From Synechococcus sp. WH 7805 (lineage in GTDB: Bacteria; Cyanobacteriota; Cyanobacteriia; PCC-6307; Cyanobiaceae): a DNA stretch of 64,000 nucleotides. Under the pieces are notes generated by a model. The model saw only the letters and a program-made list of their open reading frames with translations. It was not told the DNA's origin and ran no database searches. Of the stretch, positions 9,981-23,278 are shown piece by piece. The DNA lies in contig NZ_CH724168.1 in the NCBI RefSeq assembly GCF_000153285.1, positions 1,393,008-1,457,007 of the forward strand, given 5' to 3'. Position numbers and translations under genes: made by a program. Positions within the stretch are counted from its first letter, which is position 1; every line of letters starts with the position of its first letter.

Positions 9981-11121
9981 GGCGGGTCGAGCGCAGGGCC
10001 TCCAGACAATCACGGCGCAGGCAATCGGCGGAATAGCGCTCACGCACCTGGATCGCCCGCTCTCCCAGACGCCGACGACGCTCTGAATCAGCAAGCAGTG
10101 CGGCAACAGCCTCGATCCAGTCATTGGAGGTTGCCGAGGCGGGCAACAGCAGACCGTTGTCTCCATCGCGGATCAGATCCGATGGGCCCGTGAGGCAATC
10201 ACTGGCGATGCAGGCACACCCAGCAGCCATCGCCTCCAGAAGCACGTTGGGGAAGCCCTCATAGCGAGAGGGCAGCACAAACACCGTGGCCCTGCGATAC
10301 CAGCGGGTCATGCTGCCGCAAACCCCAGGCAACAACAGCCGGCGCTGCAGGTCGGAATCCGCCCCCAGCCGTTCGCGCAACCAAGCCTGCTGATCCTGCC
10401 CGTGATAAGTCCCTGAAGTCAGACCCAGCACAGCCAAGTGCAAACGGGAGTCCGCCAGGCCTAGCTCGGCAAACACAGGCATCAGGCGATCAAATCCCTT
10501 CTGCCGCGCCTTGGTTCCCGCGGCCAGGATCAAAGGCAGCTCCGGTGCCAACCAGTCTTCAGGCTCGATCAGTGGCTCACGATCCTGCAGCGGCCAGCTC
10601 ACTGCATTGGGCAGCAGCCGCTGACGACGCACACCACAATGCTGACGTAACCAAGCGCCGGTGATGCGGGTCTGCACCAGGTGCAGATCAGCCCAGGGAT
10701 AGGTGAGCTTGCGCAACCAGCGCCAGGGCAGAGCCGGGGGTTTAGCGGGCGGATAGTTGCGCTCTGACACCACAGTGCGCAGAGGCAGTCCGGCACAGGC
10801 CAGCAGCAACTTCACGGCCGGCAGGGTGGTCATGCCCACGGCCAGATCACACCGTTTCTGCATCAAGAGCCGGCGCAGTTGCCAGACGCGAAAGGGGAAG
10901 GCCAACCAGCCGAGCCGCTCAAGGGGAGCCGGCAACCCTGGTTCCTGGCATCGCTGCACACCATTCGGCACTGGATAGGCATCCCGGTCGGGCCCATGGC
11001 GGGTGATCACGAGCACCGACCAGCCTTCGTCCTTGCACCATTGAGCCCACTGGAGCAACACCCTTTCGGCTCCGCCCAGCTTGAGCGAGTCGATCGAGAA
11101 CGCGACACGCAGACCCCCCAT
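9973..11121 (-). CDS. GT4-family glycosyltransferase
   Basis: A 382-residue GT-B glycosyltransferase. The N-terminus has FSIDSLKLGGAERVLLQWA, the centre SERNYPP, and the C-terminal half PSRYEGFPNVLLEAMAAG followed by GPSDLIRDGDNGLLLP. This pattern resembles GT4 enzymes that add GalNAc or galactose to lipid-linked oligosaccharides, though the sugar is an inference I would not rely on. The ATG overlaps the stop of the 739-residue upstream gene by one base (TGATG), indicating coupling. No transmembrane segment is seen, so it probably acts at the cytosolic face of the membrane. Confidence 0.9.
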   Translation of the reverse strand: MGGLRVAFSIDSLKLGGAERVLLQWAQWCKDEGWSVLVITRHGPDRDAYPVPNGVQRCQEPGLPAPLERLGWLAFPFRVWQLRRLLMQKRCDLAVGMTTLPAVKLLLACAGLPLRTVVSERNYPPAKPPALPWRWLRKLTYPWADLHLVQTRITGAWLRQHCGVRRQRLLPNAVSWPLQDREPLIEPEDWLAPELPLILAAGTKARQKGFDRLMPVFAELGLADSRLHLAVLGLTSGTYHGQDQQAWLRERLGADSDLQRRLLLPGVCGSMTRWYRRATVFVLPSRYEGFPNVLLEAMAAGCACIASDCLTGPSDLIRDGDNGLLLPASATSNDWIEAVAALLADSERRRRLGERAIQVRERYSADCLRRDCLEALRSTRHG

Positions 11122-13340
11122 CAGGACTGAGCGACGGGCTGCAACGACTGCAGAAAACGACGCGCTTTCTCGGCCCGGTTGCGGCGCAGATCAGGGAAGT
11201 ACACCAACAGAACAGGGTCCACCAAGCACTCCAGCTCCGGCCGTTGGGAGGGGTCCGTCACCGACCAGCGACAGGCCGCCAACATCGCCACCACCGCATC
11301 GGCGAAACCACGGTGATCTTCCTGAGTTTTATTGGCAATCGGATCAAAGCGATCGGCATGACAGGCCTTGCGCAACCGCTCCATTTCGCCCAACACATCA
11401 GCAAAGCGCTGGGCTTCGGCTTTCTGCCAGGCCATCACCGCAGCAATGGTGAGGCTGCGCATGATGTTGCGCGTCATCCGCGTCGCTGTGTTGCGATCGA
11501 TCGCGAAGGGGTCGTAACGACGGGCACTCTCCAGCAGTTCCCGGGAGGCCTGAGCCAGAGCGGCCGTGTCCTGGAGAGCCATTAGCGCCCGCAGCCGCGT
11601 GAGCTGGGCGGAAATCAGCAGCTTGGCTCTGTTCTCGCGGTTGGGCTTGAGACAGCGATAGGTATCGGGATCACGCTCCAGCTCCAGAAGAATCGCTTCC
11701 AGACCCAAGACCCCCCGTCGCAGAGCGTTCGGATCTTTGGCATCGATGGCCCGGTAGGTGCGCACCACCCGGCAATAGCCGGCGTAATGCAGAGGTAGCG
11801 ATGGACTGGCGGCCAGCACATCGAAGAGGGCCAGCTGATCCACCTTGGATCCAGGCCTGGATCCACGCCGAAACAGCAATTGATGGAGAATTTCGGCCTC
11901 GCCGTCCTCCGCCCAGATCCGTTCGATCAACTCACAACCACCCAAGTTGTCCCCGACAGACAGACGTCTCTGCGCCAAAGCAGCCAAAAGGGTGACATTG
12001 CCCGGCTCTCGCCGAAGCCAGTAACGCAAACAAGCCTCAGCCGCCTGCACAAGACCCAGCGTCTCGAGGATTCTCACCGGCCCAAGGCGTCCCAGAGCTG
12101 AAAGGTGGGCCCGACTCCACTGACTACGCACATGGTGATAAGGAGGAGCCTGAGGAGCCAGCGGTTCCTCAGGCATCAGACCGTGCTGACGCAGGCACTG
12201 GAGCATGGCGGCCGTACGGCTGCGGTAGGTGTGACCCGCGGCCCATTCCAAGCGCTGGTTCTGGCTTGGCCCCTCTCCTGCCAGAGCCTTGCGGATCGCC
12301 TGCTCAAAGGCCATTGGTTCCGGCGGAACCAGCCAAGCCACATCCCCTTGATCCGCGAGCGATGGAATGTCCGTGGCCACCACGGGCAGGCCGGCGGCAA
12401 GGTACTCGAAGAACTTCATCGGATACATGTGGCGGGTGTAGTCGTTGATCTGCAGAGGCAGCAGGGCAACATCGGCCTGAGCCAGATAAGCCGGAAGGGT
12501 GGAGTAAGGCCGCGGCCCGAGCACATGCACGTTGGGCAAGCCTTCAAGAGACGAAATATCCGTTGTTGGATCCGTTTCTCCGACCGGACCGATGAAGACA
12601 TAAGTCCACTCAGGCGTGGATGGCGCCAAACGCTCGAGCATCGTCAGATCCAATTTGTAGGCATCGATCGCACCGATGAAGATCAGCACGGGCCCTTGAA
12701 TCGTTGGCCAGTCGACTGGGGCGTGCCGCTGAGGCTCAAGCGCTTGGCCGAAGTGGTCGGCATCCGCCACATTCCCGAAATAGTGACTCCCCGCATTCAG
12801 GGGTCCAAGCGACTGCAGCAGCTGAGGAGCCGTCGTGAACAAGGCATTGGCGGCTCCGCAGAGATCCCGTTCTGCCGCTTCCAGAGCGGCCACCGGCATC
12901 CCCGGCTGCGCCTGGATCCGATCAACACAGTGATAAATCACAGCGTGAAACTTGCCTAAGCGCAGGTAGGCACGGGTCTGGGGGTTGAACGTCCACAGCA
13001 GAGGACGTCGCAGGTCCAGAACCAGGTCTGCAGCGAACAGGCACAGATTCAAACTCCAGCGATTGAGTCGGCCAGCCACACCCTGCGTCTGCCCTGGGAT
13101 CACCAGGGGAGACACCACCCACACACCGGGACGGACCTGTCGTGGCAGGCGCAGCCCGCGCCGCAACCGCCGAAGAATCCGGCCGGAATCAGCGCGATCG
13201 ACCCGAGGGCCGCGCACACCAAGGGAGTCCACATACAGAACCCGATGGCCCAGCTCGGCCAGGGCACAGGCAACGTGCTGCTTATTGGTCCAGAGCGGAT
13301 GATCCCAGTCGGCCGTGGCCAGAAGAACAATGTCTGCCAT
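11121..13340 (-). CDS. Large glycosyltransferase with C-terminal helical extension
   Basis: A 739-residue protein with two parts. Residues 1 to about 380 form a GT-B glycosyltransferase: WTNKQHVACALAELGHRVLYVDS near the N-terminus, then the donor-side segment MYPMKFFEYLAAGLPVVATD. Residues about 390-739 are an all-helical, Ala/Leu/Arg-rich extension with no motif I recognise; it begins with short TPR-like helical pairs and could be a scaffold. It starts 5 bases after the ABC exporter's stop and overlaps the next glycosyltransferase by one base, so it belongs to the same polysaccharide unit. The extension is unusual for this enzyme family. Confidence 0.82.
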   Translation of the reverse strand: MADIVLLATADWDHPLWTNKQHVACALAELGHRVLYVDSLGVRGPRVDRADSGRILRRLRRGLRLPRQVRPGVWVVSPLVIPGQTQGVAGRLNRWSLNLCLFAADLVLDLRRPLLWTFNPQTRAYLRLGKFHAVIYHCVDRIQAQPGMPVAALEAAERDLCGAANALFTTAPQLLQSLGPLNAGSHYFGNVADADHFGQALEPQRHAPVDWPTIQGPVLIFIGAIDAYKLDLTMLERLAPSTPEWTYVFIGPVGETDPTTDISSLEGLPNVHVLGPRPYSTLPAYLAQADVALLPLQINDYTRHMYPMKFFEYLAAGLPVVATDIPSLADQGDVAWLVPPEPMAFEQAIRKALAGEGPSQNQRLEWAAGHTYRSRTAAMLQCLRQHGLMPEEPLAPQAPPYHHVRSQWSRAHLSALGRLGPVRILETLGLVQAAEACLRYWLRREPGNVTLLAALAQRRLSVGDNLGGCELIERIWAEDGEAEILHQLLFRRGSRPGSKVDQLALFDVLAASPSLPLHYAGYCRVVRTYRAIDAKDPNALRRGVLGLEAILLELERDPDTYRCLKPNRENRAKLLISAQLTRLRALMALQDTAALAQASRELLESARRYDPFAIDRNTATRMTRNIMRSLTIAAVMAWQKAEAQRFADVLGEMERLRKACHADRFDPIANKTQEDHRGFADAVVAMLAACRWSVTDPSQRPELECLVDPVLLVYFPDLRRNRAEKARRFLQSLQPVAQS

Positions 13341-13345
13341 GGCTT

Positions 13346-15163
13346 TCAGACCACATCCAGCATCGTCATTTCACGAAAACTAGGTGATGTGCGTGTCAAC
13401 GTTTCAAAATCACCGGAAGCGATGATTCGCCCTTGATCCACCTGGTAAATCCGGTCACATTTTTTGACGGTGGACAGACGATGAGCAATGACCACCATCG
13501 TGCAGCGGCGACCGATCAGATCAAGAGCCTGCATCACGTCATGCTCGGTCTTGTTATCAAGTGCGCTGGTGGCTTCATCAAGAACCATCAGCTTGGCGCG
13601 CCGGTAAAAAGCTCTGGCAAGTGATAGACGCTGCCGCTGACCGCCAGACAGCTTCATGCCATTTTCACCACACATAGTGAACAGGCCGTAGGGCATCTGA
13701 GCAACAAATTCGGAGAATTGTGCCGCTTCCAATGCAGCCCAGACCTGTTCATCATCAATGGCATCGGGTTGCTCACAGAACGCAACATTTTCGCGCACGC
13801 TCGCGTCGAGCAGACGAATGTTCTGGGGCACGAATGCACAATTGGCCTGCCATGCGGGCATCTCCTCATCAGACACTGGAACGCCATCCAGAAGAAGTTC
13901 TCCGGTGGTGGGTGTGTAGAGACCAAGCAGCACGTGAGCCAGGGTGGTCTTGCCGCTGCCGGTTTTCCCAACAAAGGCGATACGCGATCCCACCGGGATC
14001 GAGAGATGAATACCCTCCAGAACGGGACGCTCGCTCCCGAAGTAATTGAAGCTGACGTCATTGAGCTCAATCAGACGCCTGGGCATGACTCCATCTGGAG
14101 AGGGCACCCCGGGATCACCGAGCGAATATCGCTGCGGACGCATGCGCAGCAACTCAATGGCGTCTTTGACTTCGGGAAGACCGCCTCTGAGCTTATTGAT
14201 ACTGCGGAAGACAGACTGGAGTGGACCAGAAATCCGCAGCAGCACCACAAGGATCGTGGCGAGTTCGGGCAGAGCGTCACGAAGCCGGTCACCGTCTCCG
14301 GTGACGATTGCGGGAGCGAGTCCAACCGCGAACAGGATGGTGATGCCCGCAGGTTCGATCACGAAGCGCGGCACATTGGGAAGCAGGCTCGAGAGCCTGT
14401 CATTGCGCTTGGCCTGCACTCCTTCACGGGAGAAGCGATCAACAAAAAACCGATGCGAGGAATACATCTGCACATCACGCATCGATTTCAACGACTCTGA
14501 GAAGATGACATGAAGTCTTCGGGAATATCGATTTTTCTGACGAACGGCTAACCGCAGATAGGGGGTAATAATCTTTGAGGAGAGAGCATAAGCTGCCAGC
14601 AACAAAGTAAAAATCAGCAGGGATGAACTACCGAGAACAAAAATCACACCCACGATCAACGCCAACACGGAAAGCAAATTTCCTGCGATTGCAATCATTG
14701 GAGTGATCACAGCGCCGGTCACCCTGCTGAGGATGCGATTGAAGCGCTCTGACAACACTGATGTGCGCTTATGCATGAAAAACTCATAGCGCTGCAGCAT
14801 TAAATTGTTATATACCTTGTTAACAAGATCAGACCAGATCTCAGCCGTTAGGAGAGATTCGAGCAAAGCAACGCCGAAGCGGATTCCCGAAGCGAACCAG
14901 TACGCCGTGATCAGCAGAACCACGATCCAGCCAGCCTGATCGAGAAGCCCCCCGCCGAAAAAACGGATACCGGGAATCTGATCCCCAAGCTTCGCGCCCG
15001 CCAAGAGACCAACGAGACGAGCCAGGAGTCCGACCAAAAGGATGTCGACGATCCCCTGAAACAGAGACGCCAGCAGCACCACAGCTAAAAACCGCAGGCG
15101 TCTGGACGACAATTCCTGGAGCAACAGCTTCAGTTCATTCCAGGTCTGGCTCTTGAAGGGCAT
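13346..15163 (-). CDS. ABC transporter, fused permease and ATPase (glycan/lipid exporter type)
   Basis: A 605-residue half-transporter with MsbA/PglK architecture. Six membrane helices lie in about residues 25-310 and a nucleotide-binding domain follows from about 365. Walker A is GKTGSGKT (399-406), the signature is LSGGQ (505-509), Walker B is LMVLDE (525-530), and the H-loop is the IAHRLS segment. It would act as a homodimer. Placed among glycosyltransferases in a co-directional chain, it most likely flips a lipid-linked oligosaccharide across the plasma membrane. The N-terminal half is a little more AT-rich than its neighbours. Direction and substrate are inferred from context only. Confidence 0.92.
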   Translation of the reverse strand: MPFKSQTWNELKLLLQELSSRRLRFLAVVLLASLFQGIVDILLVGLLARLVGLLAGAKLGDQIPGIRFFGGGLLDQAGWIVVLLITAYWFASGIRFGVALLESLLTAEIWSDLVNKVYNNLMLQRYEFFMHKRTSVLSERFNRILSRVTGAVITPMIAIAGNLLSVLALIVGVIFVLGSSSLLIFTLLLAAYALSSKIITPYLRLAVRQKNRYSRRLHVIFSESLKSMRDVQMYSSHRFFVDRFSREGVQAKRNDRLSSLLPNVPRFVIEPAGITILFAVGLAPAIVTGDGDRLRDALPELATILVVLLRISGPLQSVFRSINKLRGGLPEVKDAIELLRMRPQRYSLGDPGVPSPDGVMPRRLIELNDVSFNYFGSERPVLEGIHLSIPVGSRIAFVGKTGSGKTTLAHVLLGLYTPTTGELLLDGVPVSDEEMPAWQANCAFVPQNIRLLDASVRENVAFCEQPDAIDDEQVWAALEAAQFSEFVAQMPYGLFTMCGENGMKLSGGQRQRLSLARAFYRRAKLMVLDEATSALDNKTEHDVMQALDLIGRRCTMVVIAHRLSTVKKCDRIYQVDQGRIIASGDFETLTRTSPSFREMTMLDVV

Positions 15164-15244
15164 GAACGAAGGTGCCGAAGACTCTGCCCGTATGGCAGAT
15201 GCCTGTTCTTGCAGAGCTTTATTAAAGACCGGGGGCCGGTCTGA

Positions 15245-16336
15245 TCAGCTCGGCCGCAGCCAGCCGGGCAACCGATTGACCACCTTGCTTCGCAGCCGAT
15301 CCCCACGCTGGCCCCAGCGCAGACGGCGGGTGGATGGACTGGTCAGAGATGCCGCAGGATCCAGGCCGAGGGCTTGGCGCTCGGCAAGAGCGTCCAACTG
15401 GCTGAGCGTGGCTCGCCAACGCTCAAGCCAACGGGCTTCAGTGACGTTCTCCAGCACAACAGCGAGGGACGAAGCATCGGGCCCCCAGCTCTCCGGATCA
15501 ACGGCAGCGGCACTGATGCGCAGGAGATCGTTGTCTAGAGACCCCTGACCGATCTGATGAGCGGTGACCCCCGGGGTGAGGCTGTCAGCCAACGCATGAT
15601 TGAAACTGCTGAACACTACGCAGCCACAAGCCAGGGCTTCCAACGGCGGCAGGCCAAAACCCTCGCTCACCCCGCGGCCTCGCCAATACTCAGCCGAGTC
15701 GTAGAGAACCACGCCAGCACTGTTGAACAAGCCAACAAGATCATCAACCCAGCCGCTTTGCACCTCCACCGTCAACCCCCGTGCACGCAGGGCAGGGACC
15801 AGCCGGTTGAGGACGTAAGGACTGCTTTTGCGCTTCTGCACCAGCACATCGATCGGGCGCCTGGATCGAACAGCTCCTAGCCCGATCGGACGCGCTCCAC
15901 GTTCCAACCACTGGGGCTCAAGGGCATTGGGAACGAGAAAGAGGGGATTGCGAGGCGCCCGATCACCCCAGTAGCCAAGGGTATTGCGGCTGACGGCGAC
16001 CACCGGGACTGCCGGCGGAAGACCAAAGCCATACCCGCTGCTGTGTGCCTGATAGACCGCAGGGCGTCCGCGGAGCTTTCTCAACAACCCAGGAACATCA
16101 AATCCCCAGCTCACCACCCAGAGACTGTCACCCGGTGCAGCCTCGCGCTTCAGTAGATCATCGAAAAAAGCGTGATCGTTCTCTCTCTCCCGGTAGGTCA
16201 CCACTTCTGTCGGGCGAAGGCCCGCCAGCAACCGGGCGGTCTGCAGGGCAACGCTCAATCCGCCGCAACGAAATCGGGCCCCGGTGCCTGGAACCAGAAC
16301 CCGAATGCGTAGCAAAGAAGCGGCGGATGGAATCAA
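15245..16336 (-). CDS. Glycosyltransferase, GT-B fold
   Basis: A 363-residue protein with a glycosyltransferase C-terminal half. YWRGRGVSEGFGLPPLEALACGCVVFSS holds the donor-binding glutamates, preceded by a DVLVQKRKSSPYVLNRL strand-helix. The N-terminus (RIRVLVPGTGARFRCGGL) resembles rhamnosyltransferase-type GT-B proteins. Its ATG overlaps the heme oxygenase stop (ATGA, 4 bases), so it is translationally coupled to ho1, a surprising partner. An 81-base gap separates it from the downstream ABC exporter. The sugar is unknown. Confidence 0.82.
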   Translation of the reverse strand: MIPSAASLLRIRVLVPGTGARFRCGGLSVALQTARLLAGLRPTEVVTYRERENDHAFFDDLLKREAAPGDSLWVVSWGFDVPGLLRKLRGRPAVYQAHSSGYGFGLPPAVPVVAVSRNTLGYWGDRAPRNPLFLVPNALEPQWLERGARPIGLGAVRSRRPIDVLVQKRKSSPYVLNRLVPALRARGLTVEVQSGWVDDLVGLFNSAGVVLYDSAEYWRGRGVSEGFGLPPLEALACGCVVFSSFNHALADSLTPGVTAHQIGQGSLDNDLLRISAAAVDPESWGPDASSLAVVLENVTEARWLERWRATLSQLDALAERQALGLDPAASLTSPSTRRLRWGQRGDRLRSKVVNRLPGWLRPS

Positions 16337-17572: not shown

Positions 17573-17643
17573 TGGCCTCCGATCACTGTGCTTAGGGTGA
17601 ATGGTGATCAGTGCTGACGCCAGAAGCCGTTACGGTTGCGACC

Positions 17644-18948
17644 ATGATCTTGAGGACTCTCAGCACTCGGCTCAGCCTGTACAGCCTGGTGGGCGTCGGA
17701 GCCGCTGCTGTTCACGCCGGTGTGCTTCTGAGCCTGGGGCTTGTCATGCCCTGGTGGATCGCCAATCCACTGGCCTTCCTTGCCGCTTCCCTGGCGAGCT
17801 ATGTGGGCCATGCCCACGTCACGTTCCGCCCTGAAACAGGGGGTCAGCAGTTCGCCCGGCGCTGGTTCGCTCTGCAGTACGCCGTCAACCTCACCGTCAG
17901 CAGCGTTCTTCCGCTGGCCTTACCAGGCTGGCTTCCCACCTCGGCCGAGGTCGTCGTTCTGGTTTTCACTCCCACACTGCTGAATGCCCTGATCTGGTCA
18001 CAGGCCGCACAGTTCAGCCTGCGTCGACGCACGAATCGCACGTCACCTCCACGCCGGCATGCCGATGATCTCGGCTTGAGCCACGCCACCAATCAGGCCA
18101 TCCTCACGCTGGCAGAGGAAGGACTGCTGGAGGGAACCAGCCTGCTGGTCAATGGTCCAGTCGCAACTGAAGGGGCAAAAGCCTGGAGCGTGCTGGCGGC
18201 AGACCGACCGACACTGCAACTCTGCCTGCATCTTTGTCTCACAGAGGGGCCGTCGAGTGCTCCGCCCGATTTAATTCCTGATCTGGTGGATCACCAAGGA
18301 CATCTGCATCGGTCCTTTGGACACTGGCTGCTCCTGTCACTGCTGCCGCCTCGACATCCCAGGCGGGCAAGGCTTGTGAAACAGCTGGGACATGAAATTG
18401 ACGCGCAGGTCAGACAATTTCAAGCCATGCGAGGCGAGGGGCCCATCGCACTGGACGGCCATCAGCACATCCATCTGGTTCCTGTGGTGCTCGATGCCGT
18501 GCTCGCCCGTTCCAGCAGGTTTGGCATCACTTGGCTGCGAAGCACGGATGAACCTCTGCCCACTGGACTTCCACTGAGATGCTGGTTGCAATCCTGCCGC
18601 GACGCAGGGCTGATCAAATGGCTTGTTCTTCAGTTGTTGAGCCGCCGCGCCAGGGGAGCCTTCCGGCAGCACGGAATCACCAGCAACGGAGGGTTCGCCG
18701 GAGTCTTGTTCACAGGACGGATGACCGGTGCTCCGCTTCGGGCTGCCTGGAGTGAGCTCGCCAGCCTGCGCTCTCCAGACCACTGCACCCCCTCGCTTCT
18801 GCTGGCCCATCCTGGAGCCCCACTGGAACAAAACATCGCCCAGGAGGGGTTCACGGTTTCACAGCCATTTGCGGCGTCTCCCTGGAGGCAAAAGGAATGG
18901 CGTGCTCTTCAAGCGCTCAGCGTCACGCCTGATGAATGCTGCGGATGA
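17644..18948 (+). CDS. GtrA-like flippase fused to YdjC-family deacetylase
   Basis: A two-domain protein of 434 residues from the ATG at 17644 (a GTG at 17611 would add 11). Residues about 5-125 form four membrane helices of the GtrA family, which helps move undecaprenyl-phosphate sugars across the membrane. Residues about 138-434 match YdjC/ChbG carbohydrate deacetylases: ADDLGLS (A140, D141, D142), LHLCLTEG with H196, and the HQHIH motif (H273, H275, H277), so the usual metal ligands and catalytic Asp are present. With GtrA topology the deacetylase would face the cytosol. The gene converges on a GtrB/ArnC-like glycosyltransferase, overlapping by 26 bases. This suggests N-deacetylation of a lipid-linked amino sugar before or during flipping, comparable to NaxD in Francisella. 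The pairing is clear; the chemistry is inferred. Confidence 0.85.
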   Translation: MILRTLSTRLSLYSLVGVGAAAVHAGVLLSLGLVMPWWIANPLAFLAASLASYVGHAHVTFRPETGGQQFARRWFALQYAVNLTVSSVLPLALPGWLPTSAEVVVLVFTPTLLNALIWSQAAQFSLRRRTNRTSPPRRHADDLGLSHATNQAILTLAEEGLLEGTSLLVNGPVATEGAKAWSVLAADRPTLQLCLHLCLTEGPSSAPPDLIPDLVDHQGHLHRSFGHWLLLSLLPPRHPRRARLVKQLGHEIDAQVRQFQAMRGEGPIALDGHQHIHLVPVVLDAVLARSSRFGITWLRSTDEPLPTGLPLRCWLQSCRDAGLIKWLVLQLLSRRARGAFRQHGITSNGGFAGVLFTGRMTGAPLRAAWSELASLRSPDHCTPSLLLAHPGAPLEQNIAQEGFTVSQPFAASPWRQKEWRALQALSVTPDECCG

Positions 18949-19873
18949 AGTAATGGGGTCTGGCCTTGGCCTCCACATAAATCCGCCCGATGTAATCACC
19001 CAGCACACCGATCCCGATCAACTGAATGCCACCAAGGAACAGCATGGCCACCATCAAGGAGGCGTACCCGGGCACATCTCTGCCCACAAGAACCGTCCGC
19101 AGCGCAATCACCAAGGCATAGAAAAGACTGAAACTCGACACGAGAACACCAAGACCTGTCCACACCTTCAAGGGAAGAACAGAGAAAGAGAAAATCCCGT
19201 CGAAGGCATAACTGAAGAGCTTGAGCGGGCTCCACGACGTGGTGCCACCCGCCCTGGTCACCCGCTGATAAGGAAGCTCCGCGCTGCGATATCCCGTCCA
19301 AGGCAGTAGCCCTTTGGAAAACCGGCTCGACTCCCGCAATTGGGTGAATGCCTCCACCACCTGAGCATCAAGCAAACGGAAATCCCCAGCCCCCTCCTGC
19401 AGCTGGATGGAATCCACCACTTTGTTGAACACCCGGTAAAACCAAGAAGCGCTCAACACCTTCAGTCGCGATTCCTGGTCGCGGTCATCGCGCACGGCAG
19501 TGACGACTTCGGCCCCTGCACGCCACTCCATCACCATCGCTTCAATTAATTCCGGTGGATGCTGCAGATCGGAATCGATCAACACAGCAGCAGCACATCG
19601 TCCGCGAACGTGATCAAGACCGGCCAGCATCGCCGCCTCCTTGCCGAAGTTGCGGGTGAGCTCCAACAGCGTGACCGGAACCGGTTCGCCCAGGCAGCGG
19701 CGATCGGCCAGGAAACCACGAATCTGATCCACGGTTGCATCCTTAGAACCATCGTCGATCAGCACCAGCTGGTCCACCCCAGGCACGGCCAGCACCCGCT
19801 CGATGAAGCGGCTGATCACGGCTTCTTCGTTGAAACAGGCCGCCACCACCCACACACCATCACGGTTCGTCAT
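18923..19873 (-). CDS. GtrB/ArnC-like GT2 glycosyltransferase (polyprenyl-phosphate sugar synthase)
   Basis: A 316-residue GT2 enzyme with two C-terminal membrane helices (about 222-250 and 262-290), the architecture of dolichol-phosphate mannose synthase, GtrB and ArnC. Motifs are VVAACFNEE (9-17), LIDDGSKDAT (38-47), LTRNFGKEAAMLAGLDH, the catalytic DSDLQHPPE (100-108), and the late IGRIYVEAKARPHYFI. It would transfer a sugar from a nucleotide donor to undecaprenyl phosphate on the cytosolic face. I chose the ATG at 19873; a TTG at 19888 would add five residues. Its partner flippase (GtrA) and a deacetylase are fused in the convergent neighbouring gene. Confidence 0.92.
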   Translation of the reverse strand: MTNRDGVWVVAACFNEEAVISRFIERVLAVPGVDQLVLIDDGSKDATVDQIRGFLADRRCLGEPVPVTLLELTRNFGKEAAMLAGLDHVRGRCAAAVLIDSDLQHPPELIEAMVMEWRAGAEVVTAVRDDRDQESRLKVLSASWFYRVFNKVVDSIQLQEGAGDFRLLDAQVVEAFTQLRESSRFSKGLLPWTGYRSAELPYQRVTRAGGTTSWSPLKLFSYAFDGIFSFSVLPLKVWTGLGVLVSSFSLFYALVIALRTVLVGRDVPGYASLMVAMLFLGGIQLIGIGVLGDYIGRIYVEAKARPHYFIRSIHQA

Positions 19874-21406: not shown

Positions 21407-23278
21407 TTGAACGGGCGAGAGAAACATTGGCTGTTGCGTCTGGCGACGGCGTGGATCGCCCTGAGCGCAGCCGGGATTGGCTTGTGGGTCTGGGTTCGGC
21501 AGCGTCCTCAAGCACTCCCCCCTCCGAATTCCAAGTCAGGCCAAGATCTCCTACTTGGTTACCAGGAGATCACACACAACATCTGGCTGATCGCTCTTGC
21601 CCTGGTCATCATTTGTTTGGTCCAGCGTATTTATGTCAATCGCAAGCGCGAGACGCTGAGATCCGAGCACCAATCCAAACAGCCCATCGAATCGCTGCTG
21701 CGTTTCATCAAAAAGAATCCAATTTCAAGTGCACTCTTCATCGCTTACGGCGTCGCGATGATGTCCGGCATTACTTACCTGCACAAAGACATGCTCGGCT
21801 GGTATCCAGAGCTCGTCAAAGGACACTTTCTCGATAACTTCTCAATCCGACAATCCTTCGTTAGCGAAACAATGCGACGAACCGATTATCGCTTTTTCCC
21901 ACTCGCTCACCAGGACCTTCACATTCTGAGCTGGTTCACCATCCACATCAAAACCTGGATCCTGGTGAGCGTGGCCGAACTGATCAGCATCGTTTTATTG
22001 AGCATCAAGTTCCTCAACGACTTGACATCAAGCAAGCTCGCGAAACAGTCGACCATCCTCTTGCTGACACTCCTCTTTTTAATCCACCCATCAACAGGAA
22101 CCGCCTTCTTTCATGTGATCTACTGCGAGCGGCTGTTGTGCCTTGTTTTCATGCTTTATATCACCACCTATGCATTCTATCGAAAAACATCACATGCATC
22201 TTACTTTTACCTCACTTTTCTTTGGGCACTGCTTGGCATTTACATCAAAGACATTGCCGTCATTCTCTTCATCACACCGGCTGCCTCTTTATGGATAGCG
22301 GACTCGATCACAAACCAATCAAAAGACAAGCCAAATCATCGCCTTGAACATTGGCTTTGCAGCCTGAGCCTTGTCTTTATCGCAAGCTATATCTTTTTAG
22401 CGCTGATCCCCAGCAGCTTTGCCGGAGGGAGTGCCTACAACAACAACGCTCCAGGAGGGTTGGTTCTCGACATTCGCTGCTATCTCTTTGGCGCTGTCGC
22501 CCTGACCAGGGCTGGAGCAATCCTCAGGAGGCGCCTCACATTCACGATCCTGGACTCCATCAACATCACCGCTTTTGCCTACGCCACCGCATTAGCTCTC
22601 ACCTATGCGTTCGACGCCAACAGCTACTTGGCATTACCGGTTCAATTGATCGCAACAATCAACATCGGCTGGGCATGGATGCAACTTATTGAACCCAAGC
22701 AGCGACGCCACCATCAACAAAGCGTCAAGATCATGGCGGCGGCAGCATCAGCAAGCTTGATCATCGGAGCCGATCACACACTGATGGACAAAACCTTCGC
22801 CAAAACGATCGCCGAACAGAAATTCGACCAGGCTTCCACACAAGCAACCTACGAAAAGCTCGATCGAATTTGCAAAAAAGTCCGCGAGTCAGGGGCCAAC
22901 GTGCATCTCATCATCAGCCAGGATTCATGGCTTTCATCCAAACGCCACCTTAATCGCATTCACTACAGATCCCTGATCGAATACGAGCCAGTAAGCAAGG
23001 CGTTCATCGTTAAAGACGGAGCCAACAAAGGCATGCGTTACACACCAGCGCCCGGAGATCTCATTGCCAATGTCGACAAAAACATCAATGTCTTGAATCC
23101 AATCCTGAACGGACTAGAAACTGAGCTCATCTACCGACACAATCCGAGCGAACGCAGCGGAATGATTCTCAGGATCACAGGCATCAAGCAGATGGATCAC
23201 GATCAGTCATCACTGAACGACAGAGTCCCAGACAGTTCCGACAGCATCGGTTCTGCTGCAATCACAATGGATCCATGA
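21407..23278 (+). CDS. Polytopic membrane protein of unknown family, paralogue 3
   Basis: A 623-residue homologue of the two proteins encoded at 3219-6704. It starts with TTG at 21407, and an N-terminal helix (AGIGLWVWVRQR) aligns with that of paralogue 2, supporting the start. Shared blocks are FFPLAHQDLHILSWFT, FFHVIYCERLL, IYIKDIAVILF, PVQLIATINIGWAW and the C-terminal RSLIEY and MRYTPAPGDLI. It differs from its neighbours in being visibly more AT-rich (about half G+C) with different codon choice, suggesting separate acquisition or relaxed selection. It sits between icd and glcF, overlapping glcF by 4 bases (ATGA). Function unknown, with 11-13 predicted helices and a soluble C-terminal domain. 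Confidence 0.86.
   Translation: MNGREKHWLLRLATAWIALSAAGIGLWVWVRQRPQALPPPNSKSGQDLLLGYQEITHNIWLIALALVIICLVQRIYVNRKRETLRSEHQSKQPIESLLRFIKKNPISSALFIAYGVAMMSGITYLHKDMLGWYPELVKGHFLDNFSIRQSFVSETMRRTDYRFFPLAHQDLHILSWFTIHIKTWILVSVAELISIVLLSIKFLNDLTSSKLAKQSTILLLTLLFLIHPSTGTAFFHVIYCERLLCLVFMLYITTYAFYRKTSHASYFYLTFLWALLGIYIKDIAVILFITPAASLWIADSITNQSKDKPNHRLEHWLCSLSLVFIASYIFLALIPSSFAGGSAYNNNAPGGLVLDIRCYLFGAVALTRAGAILRRRLTFTILDSINITAFAYATALALTYAFDANSYLALPVQLIATINIGWAWMQLIEPKQRRHHQQSVKIMAAAASASLIIGADHTLMDKTFAKTIAEQKFDQASTQATYEKLDRICKKVRESGANVHLIISQDSWLSSKRHLNRIHYRSLIEYEPVSKAFIVKDGANKGMRYTPAPGDLIANVDKNINVLNPILNGLETELIYRHNPSERSGMILRITGIKQMDHDQSSLNDRVPDSSDSIGSAAITMDP

Follow-up and report, generated by a model that had tools for sequence, protein, structure and literature searches.

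We have analysed a window of 64,000 nucleotides from Synechococcus sp. WH 7805 (contig NZ_CH724168.1, positions 1,393,008 to 1,457,007), in which a single gene joins a GtrA-type membrane half to a YdjC-family deacetylase half and lies tail to tail with a gene for a GtrB-type glycosyltransferase of family 2 (GT2). The GT2 and the YdjC deacetylase are inherited together, and we think it fairly probable that the two genes form a module making a lipid-linked free amino sugar for export. The pair is carried by many picocyanobacteria, which probably use it to assemble a lipid-linked, positively charged amino sugar destined for the cell surface, by steps whose equivalents are so far known from separate genes in other bacteria.

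The gene pair and its joint inheritance

The fusion frame is open over all of its 434 codons, beginning with the ATG at 17644 and ending with the stop at 18948 (translation could also start at the in-frame GTG of position 17611), and both halves exceed their Pfam cut-offs: the GtrA_DPMS_TM domain with 39.3 bits against 26.1 (E 8.3e-10, profile positions 2-97 of 117) and the YdjC domain with 151.4 bits against 29.7 (E 5.7e-44). Together with the four helices of the structural model described below, these matches bear out the original prediction of GtrA-type membrane helices fused to a YdjC deacetylase, and they settle its doubt whether the C-terminal half would match YdjC at all. A frame artefact, the other doubt raised there, can be rejected from the open frame and from the presence of the fusion in 24 of 31 genus genomes and 86 of 400 family genomes. 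The ADD, LHL and HQHIH residues that had been singled out are indeed kept throughout the 20 aligned fusions, with H275 changed in one of them, and H389 is likewise invariant in all 20; the individual motif residues presumably have catalytic and metal-binding roles. In Pfam searches of its own genome, exactly one GtrA and one YdjC domain were found, both in the fusion gene.

The convergent neighbour overlaps the fusion by 26 bp at the 3′ ends (18923-18948). It matches Glycos_transf_2 of Pfam (E 2.6e-25), has its hydrophobic segments at the C-terminal end (residues 226-296), and finds the PHROG family phrog_841, 'GtrB-like O-antigen conversion', with E 5.3e-94. When this GT2 and 15 further ones are combined into a profile, the profile matches Synechocystis GtrB sll0501 over its full length with 351 bits, and ArnC with 183 bits. 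Judged by these similarities, the protein is probably a polyprenyl-phosphate glycosyltransferase of the GtrB type and is closer to GtrB than to ArnC; of the 'GtrB/ArnC type' first proposed, the polyprenyl-phosphate class and the GtrB likeness are retained, and the ArnC likeness is the weaker one. Membership was rejected for the ArnC equivalog (NF007986, 124.2 bits against a cut-off of 529) and for the PgfS equivalog (NF047588, 246.3 against 500).

At E 0.001 or better, the fusion protein has matches in 103 of the 400 family genomes, of which 86 are counted as carriers; the remaining 17 match one half or fragments only. Damaged or partial copies are included among the 86 (G156 with internal stops, G323 split over two frames, G274 covering residues 104-426; G and L numbers are our labels for genomes and loci), and a single TGA is counted in many rows, the alignment extending beyond the gene's own stop in those inspected. 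The GT2 has matches at 1e-60 in 111 of the 400 genomes, from which the 84 at 1e-100 or better are taken as orthologs and the 27 weaker ones left out. With these definitions, both genes occur in 83 genomes, the fusion alone in three, the GT2 alone in one (G166) and neither in 313. A fusion lacking its GtrB partner, which the original prediction had named as a possible weakness, is the exception, as the GT2 ortholog is present in 83 of the 86 fusion genomes; the others are G005 (58% complete), G309 (68% complete) and G090. The orientation is convergent in all 83 pairs, with a median gap of 3 bp and a gap of 100 bp or less in 79 of them.

The pair is dispensable and is lost together. No intact fusion is present in seven of the 31 genus genomes, and in six of these seven the flanking genes for icd, a 150-residue open reading frame (ORF) and heme oxygenase are retained side by side, with neither gene of the pair intact. 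Remnants are left in three of them: a piece resembling the first 32 GtrA residues in G286, the first 48 residues of the GT2 in G023, and a broken GT2 covering residues 5-104 in G007. In the seventh genome, G014 (63% complete), a heme oxygenase match was not found. When six fusion-lacking genomes of the genus were searched for the two domains, G023, G007, G013 and G020 had neither GtrA nor YdjC, and G259 and G286 had a GtrA match elsewhere and no YdjC.

Two loci depart from the common arrangement. In G166 (L064:4029-5375), the gene ends after the GtrA domain, with a short tail like the YdjC end of its relatives; its GT2 is 82% identical to that of the window, but the GDFRL motif is changed, and the system may be in decay or may now export an acetylated sugar. 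G090 (L045:5001-7226) has kept the fusion with a different GT2 as convergent partner, 28-29% identical to that of the window, a replacement that is possibly a swap of sugar. As a separate observation, G166, G090 and G259 contain ORFs of 336-368 residues (in L241, L242 and L244) with a GtrA match and a GT2-like start, which by eye resemble fusions of the dolichol-phosphate-mannose synthase (DPMS) type.

Table 1. Features of the gene pair in the window.
Feature	Position	Strand	Remarks
GtrA-YdjC fusion gene	17644..18948	+	434 amino acids; Pfam, family-wide survey
GtrA_DPMS_TM domain	17680..17958	+	residues 13-105; Pfam PF04138
YdjC deacetylase domain	18058..18915	+	residues 139-424; Pfam PF04794
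HADD motif (H139, D141, D142)	18058..18069	+	identical in 20/20 aligned fusions
H196 in LHLCLTEG stretch	18229..18231	+	identical in 20/20 aligned fusions
DGHQHIH motif (D271, H273, H275, H277)	18454..18474	+	D271, H273, H277 in 20/20; H275 in 19/20
GtrB-type GT2	18923..19873	-	316 amino acids; convergent; Glycos_transf_2 and GtrB profile match

Wider distribution and the glycosyltransferase tree

In a scan of named genomes, the best 80 of 531 confirmed relatives comprise 23 fusions and 57 others. The 23 fusions (L074-L096) come from Synechococcus (including WH7803 and RCC307), Prochlorococcus, Cyanobium, Vulcanococcus and other picocyanobacteria. The 57 other YdjC loci are top-scoring relatives, some of them near contig ends, whose shares are not a fair sample: such a GT2 (profile E <1e-20) lies within 5 kb in 44, a GtrA match (E <0.01) is present in at least 19, one being the fused domain of L100 itself, and an ArnT-like GT-C (E <1e-10) in 10; a GT2 plus GtrA is seen in at least 18 and all three in at least eight, the GtrA counts being lower bounds since the profile missed a GtrA in L276 that Pfam finds. 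Neither GT2 nor GtrA is present at these cut-offs in 12 loci, L109 and L136 among them. In Chromobacterium (L132), GT-C, GT2, GtrA and YdjC are consecutive unfused genes. In a survey of 386 genomes across the phylum, the stop-free matches covering both halves all fall, among the matches listed, in the window's own family. For one group of the phylum (f40), the GT2 is close to YdjC in all four fetched loci, three picked because their matches ran oddly across stops and one because it scored highest, and the f40 locus L276 holds a full unfused set of GT-C, GT2, GtrA and YdjC, its GtrA and PMT_2 confirmed by Pfam.

Other fusions of these parts were also found. L100:6016-7269 is a YdjC-GtrA fusion in reverse order with an adjoining GT2, in a small bin of about 0.8 Mb; its source, G787, is the only one of 60 genomes with both halves in one match (none of 59 relatives), and this single observation could be an assembly or binning oddity. 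Two Deltaproteobacteria bins contain GT2-YdjC fusions with another kind of GT2 (L109:1649-3442 and L136:5278-6891). That the same parts occur in three fusion orders argues that they would act on one substrate, with the caution that one of these orders is known from a single case and another from two. Phage or plasmid spread was considered and rejected, each collection giving a single weak match that is confined to the YdjC half.

In a GT2 tree of 94 rows, the 21 GT2s of the fusion locus, one of them beside the GtrA-only gene of G166, form one clade (100/100). They are joined next by L069 and L070, GT2s of the same family (96/93), the former with an adjoining GtrA match, and then by 43 of the 44 YdjC-linked GT2s of other bacteria (95/87), L133 falling elsewhere; 22 other cyanobacterial GT2s are in a separate clade (97/90). 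The tree gives a hint that the fusion GT2s are nearer to YdjC-linked GT2s than to other cyanobacterial ones, and a hint only, because its outside rows were drawn from YdjC loci, its root is the midpoint and several of its branches are long.

Membrane side, proposed mechanism and rival readings

An AlphaFold2 model of the fusion, with 20 fusions as input, has a mean predicted local distance difference test (pLDDT) score of 91.6 and a predicted template modelling (pTM) score of 0.82. A fold search with the whole model, which covered the YdjC half only, gave 2i5i (Z 23.7, root-mean-square deviation (rmsd) 2.6, 243 residues) and ChbG 7vi8 (Z 23.1, rmsd 2.7, 237 residues), so that the modelled YdjC half has the TIM-barrel fold of ChbG-type deacetylases, and deacetylase activity is predicted for it. 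The GtrA half, with four long model helices (residues 2-32, 37-60, 72-92 and 99-130), was folded and searched separately (pLDDT 87.0). Its best counterpart is the membrane domain of DPMS (PDB 5mm1; Z 12.0, rmsd 3.1, 123 residues), and the DPMS matches reach Z 11.0-12.0 over 123-124 residues against Z 6.0 for the next unrelated row, although below about Z 13 the likeness of helical bundles may go no further than a common arrangement. Foldseek with the GtrA half gave nothing below E 0.001.

The mean net charge over 20 sequences is +1.75 at the N-terminus, +3.4 in the loop between transmembrane helices 2 and 3 and +4.05 after helix 4, against 0.2 and 0.1 in the other two loops. From the positive-inside rule and the model, both ends of the GtrA half should be inside and the YdjC half should be cytoplasmic, facing the same side on which the GT2 is expected to work; deacetylation should therefore precede crossing. 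The earlier idea that deacetylation is tied to membrane crossing is to be modified in this respect, since a cytoplasmic YdjC half would put deacetylation first, and flipping by the GtrA half, suggested by its family, is unproven.

In the mechanism that we favour, the GtrB-type GT2 would work at the cytoplasmic face of the membrane and load polyprenyl phosphate with a sugar, presumably N-acetylhexosamine, taken from a nucleotide sugar. The YdjC half, on the same side, would remove the acetyl group at its TIM-barrel site, whose fold and residues agree with such an activity. The GtrA half, if it behaves like its family, would bind the lipid-linked amino sugar and pass it to the outer leaflet, from which an unlinked GT-C enzyme might transfer the cationic sugar to the lipopolysaccharide (LPS) core, the O-chain, exopolysaccharide or protein. 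With the two halves fused, the deacetylase would stay at the lipid carrier, and the deacetylated form would be exported preferentially. By analogy, this mechanism has experimental anchors in the action of NaxD on undecaprenyl-phosphate N-acetylgalactosamine (GalNAc) (PMC11279074) and in the need for lgmA-C in the modification of Bordetella lipid A with glucosamine (PMC4993483). A stricter form, that of a one-piece deacetylating flippase, is tentative: the YdjC half would hand only the deacetylated, cationic sugar-lipid to the GtrA half, so that deacetylation gates crossing and a positively charged surface sugar results. If true, this sugar would be placed on an envelope reported to be without lipid A phosphate.

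Several observations weigh against such a module. Convergent genes cannot share one transcript, the top NCBIfam model of the GT2 is PgfS (though far under its cut-off), G166 retains GtrA and GT2 without YdjC (though with the altered GT2 motif), and a DPMS-like fold of the GtrA half need not imply flipping. No ArnT-like GT-C is linked to the pair among the seven neighbours scanned with Pfam between 11124 and 24585, and PMT_2 is found in all 31 genus genomes at E 0.001, irrespective of the fusion (30 of 31 over the cut-off). A 518-residue GT-C candidate (L204:6296-7849) was rejected as partner, as it is not co-distributed with the fusion: at E 1e-15 it matches 188 of the 400 family genomes, being present without the fusion in, for example, G023 and G040 and missed with the fusion in, for example, G335 and G058. 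We take the Bordetella gene lgmD to be of the GtrA type. It is reported not to be essential (PMC4993483), which weakens the flippase step if this assignment is right.

The Francisella scheme cited in the original prediction places the amino sugar on lipid A. Lipid A phosphate is unlikely as the acceptor in marine Synechococcus, because the lipid A of strains WH8102 and CC9311 is reported in a review to be phosphate-free, with one galacturonic acid (PMC4515613), and no ArnT-like gene is linked to the pair or co-distributed with it. In the LPS of the same strains, according to this review, glucose is 4-linked and accompanied by smaller amounts of glucosamine and galacturonic acid (PMC4515613), and this glucosamine may simply be that of the lipid A backbone.

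Three further observations concern glycan and membrane genes outside the pair. Downstream of icd, positions 21407-23278 (+) of the window encode a 623-residue protein that appears by eye to be multi-membrane and is without Pfam matches at E 0.01. On the far side of the heme oxygenase gene, at 11121-16336 (-), two genes of the GT1 superfamily (Glycos_transf_1 type, the second match below the cut-off) flank an ABC transporter, possibly a further glycan cluster. Elsewhere in the window's genome (L204:9950-13430), two tandem, very similar porin genes, which we take to be of the SLH type, lie beside several GT-C-like genes.

The GtrA half could instead be an anchor or substrate-presenting scaffold, as perhaps in DPMS, that keeps the YdjC half, possibly together with the GT2, at the lipid-linked sugar while another protein does the flipping. 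We regard this as possible but on the unlikely side. It would fit the DPMS match given above, the grouping of GtrA and DPMS as one family by Pfam itself, and the report on lgmD (PMC4993483); G166, on the other hand, keeps its GtrA domain beside the GT2 after losing YdjC, and GtcA, of the same family as GtrA, is needed for the sugar decoration of lipoteichoic acid outside the cell (PMC7389260).

It is improbable that the YdjC half recycles or trims some other N-acetyl sugar, such as chitobiose or the hopanoid precursor for which HpnK is annotated, beside an ordinary GtrB glucosyltransferase. The best NCBIfam models of the YdjC half are indeed HpnK (TIGR03473, 99.1 bits) and then chitin disaccharide deacetylase (NF002559, 62.1 bits), but membership of both is rejected, the cut-offs of 232.6 and 227 bits being missed by far. 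Likewise, the nearest solved GT2 is GtrB sll0501, but the GT2 and the fusion are kept and lost together, a GT2 beside YdjC recurs in other groups, and in the tree, which does not include sll0501, the fusion GT2s lie outside the clade of 22 cyanobacterial GT2s and nearer to the 43 of 44 YdjC-linked ones. It is very improbable that the acetyl group is removed at the periplasmic face once the sugar-lipid has crossed, which is what has been proposed for HexD of Clostridioides difficile: a set of glycosyltransferase, flippase and deacetylase for which this order was put forward does exist (PMC11898633), but the loop charges of 20 sequences place both ends of the four helices inside.

Under the favoured reading of a module for a lipid-linked amino sugar, a compact pair that some close relatives have and others cleanly lack is a testable source of surface-charge difference. 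Marine Synechococcus and Prochlorococcus encounter phages, grazers and metals at their envelope, and a role has yet to be assigned to many of the envelope's glycan genes. In addition, a GtrA domain joined to an enzyme whose product is defined could reveal if GtrA is a transporter and, if so, which lipid-linked sugar it carries.

Comparison with known systems

The type of pathway is known; its fusion with a fixed convergent partner in picocyanobacteria looks undescribed within the open-access literature searched, in which no paper was found that names GtrA together with YdjC, under that name rather than as ChbG, HpnK or the like. The combination of a GtrB-type GT2 with a GtrA-type membrane domain is shared with GtrA/GtrB/Gtr(X) and with GtcA and CsbB/YfhO, whereas here a deacetylase is fused to the GtrA part and a third, acceptor-specific gene was not found among the neighbours. 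GtrB sll0501 (PDB 5ekp), in spite of its full-length profile match, probably belongs to another GT2 clade, judging from the 22 similarly scoring cyanobacterial GT2s, sll0501 itself being outside the tree. For HexSDF of Clostridioides difficile, too, a glycosyltransferase, a deacetylase and a flippase have been proposed to serve together in making an amino-sugar lipid (PMC11898633); this system, likened here by description rather than by comparison of families, differs in its lipid and its proposed order of steps. DPMS resembles the GtrA half in fold and shows that a GtrA-type domain can be joined to an enzyme, but this enzyme is a GT2 there and a deacetylase here.

The locus of a Francisella endosymbiont (L153) holds a GT2, a YdjC and a PMT_2 gene, which we take to be FlmF2, NaxD and FlmK; its GT2 is 36% identical to that of the window over 319 columns and its YdjC 32% over 166. 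The Francisella-like trio of the original prediction is thus upheld as a link to FlmF2/NaxD-type chemistry and less so as a model of the gene set: L153 is without a fusion, no GtrA was found by profile and no GtrA-sized hydrophobic ORF outside the large genes within 12.5 kb, and the acceptor in Francisella is lipid A. NaxD of Francisella belongs to the YdjC superfamily and deacetylates GalNAc that is linked to undecaprenyl phosphate (PMC11279074). One group reports that naxD overexpression in Acinetobacter is insufficient for colistin resistance (PMC6635527), and therefore a resistance effect of such a sugar is not to be assumed.

The Chromobacterium and Alcaligenaceae sets, which have a GtrA gene, are closer to the window than the Francisella set. 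The Alcaligenaceae locus L104 holds a GT2, an ArnT-like GT-C, a GtrA and a YdjC gene, presumably lgmA-D. In Bordetella, lgmA, lgmB and lgmC are required for the glucosamine modification of lipid A (PMC4993483), and deletion of lgmA-D abolishes it (PMC11895810). There the glucosamine is placed on lipid A phosphates, in contrast to the lipid A of marine Synechococcus that is reported to be phosphate-free (PMC4515613), and four separate genes are used, whereas in the window GtrA and YdjC make up one protein, the GT2 is convergent with it and the GT-C would be unlinked.

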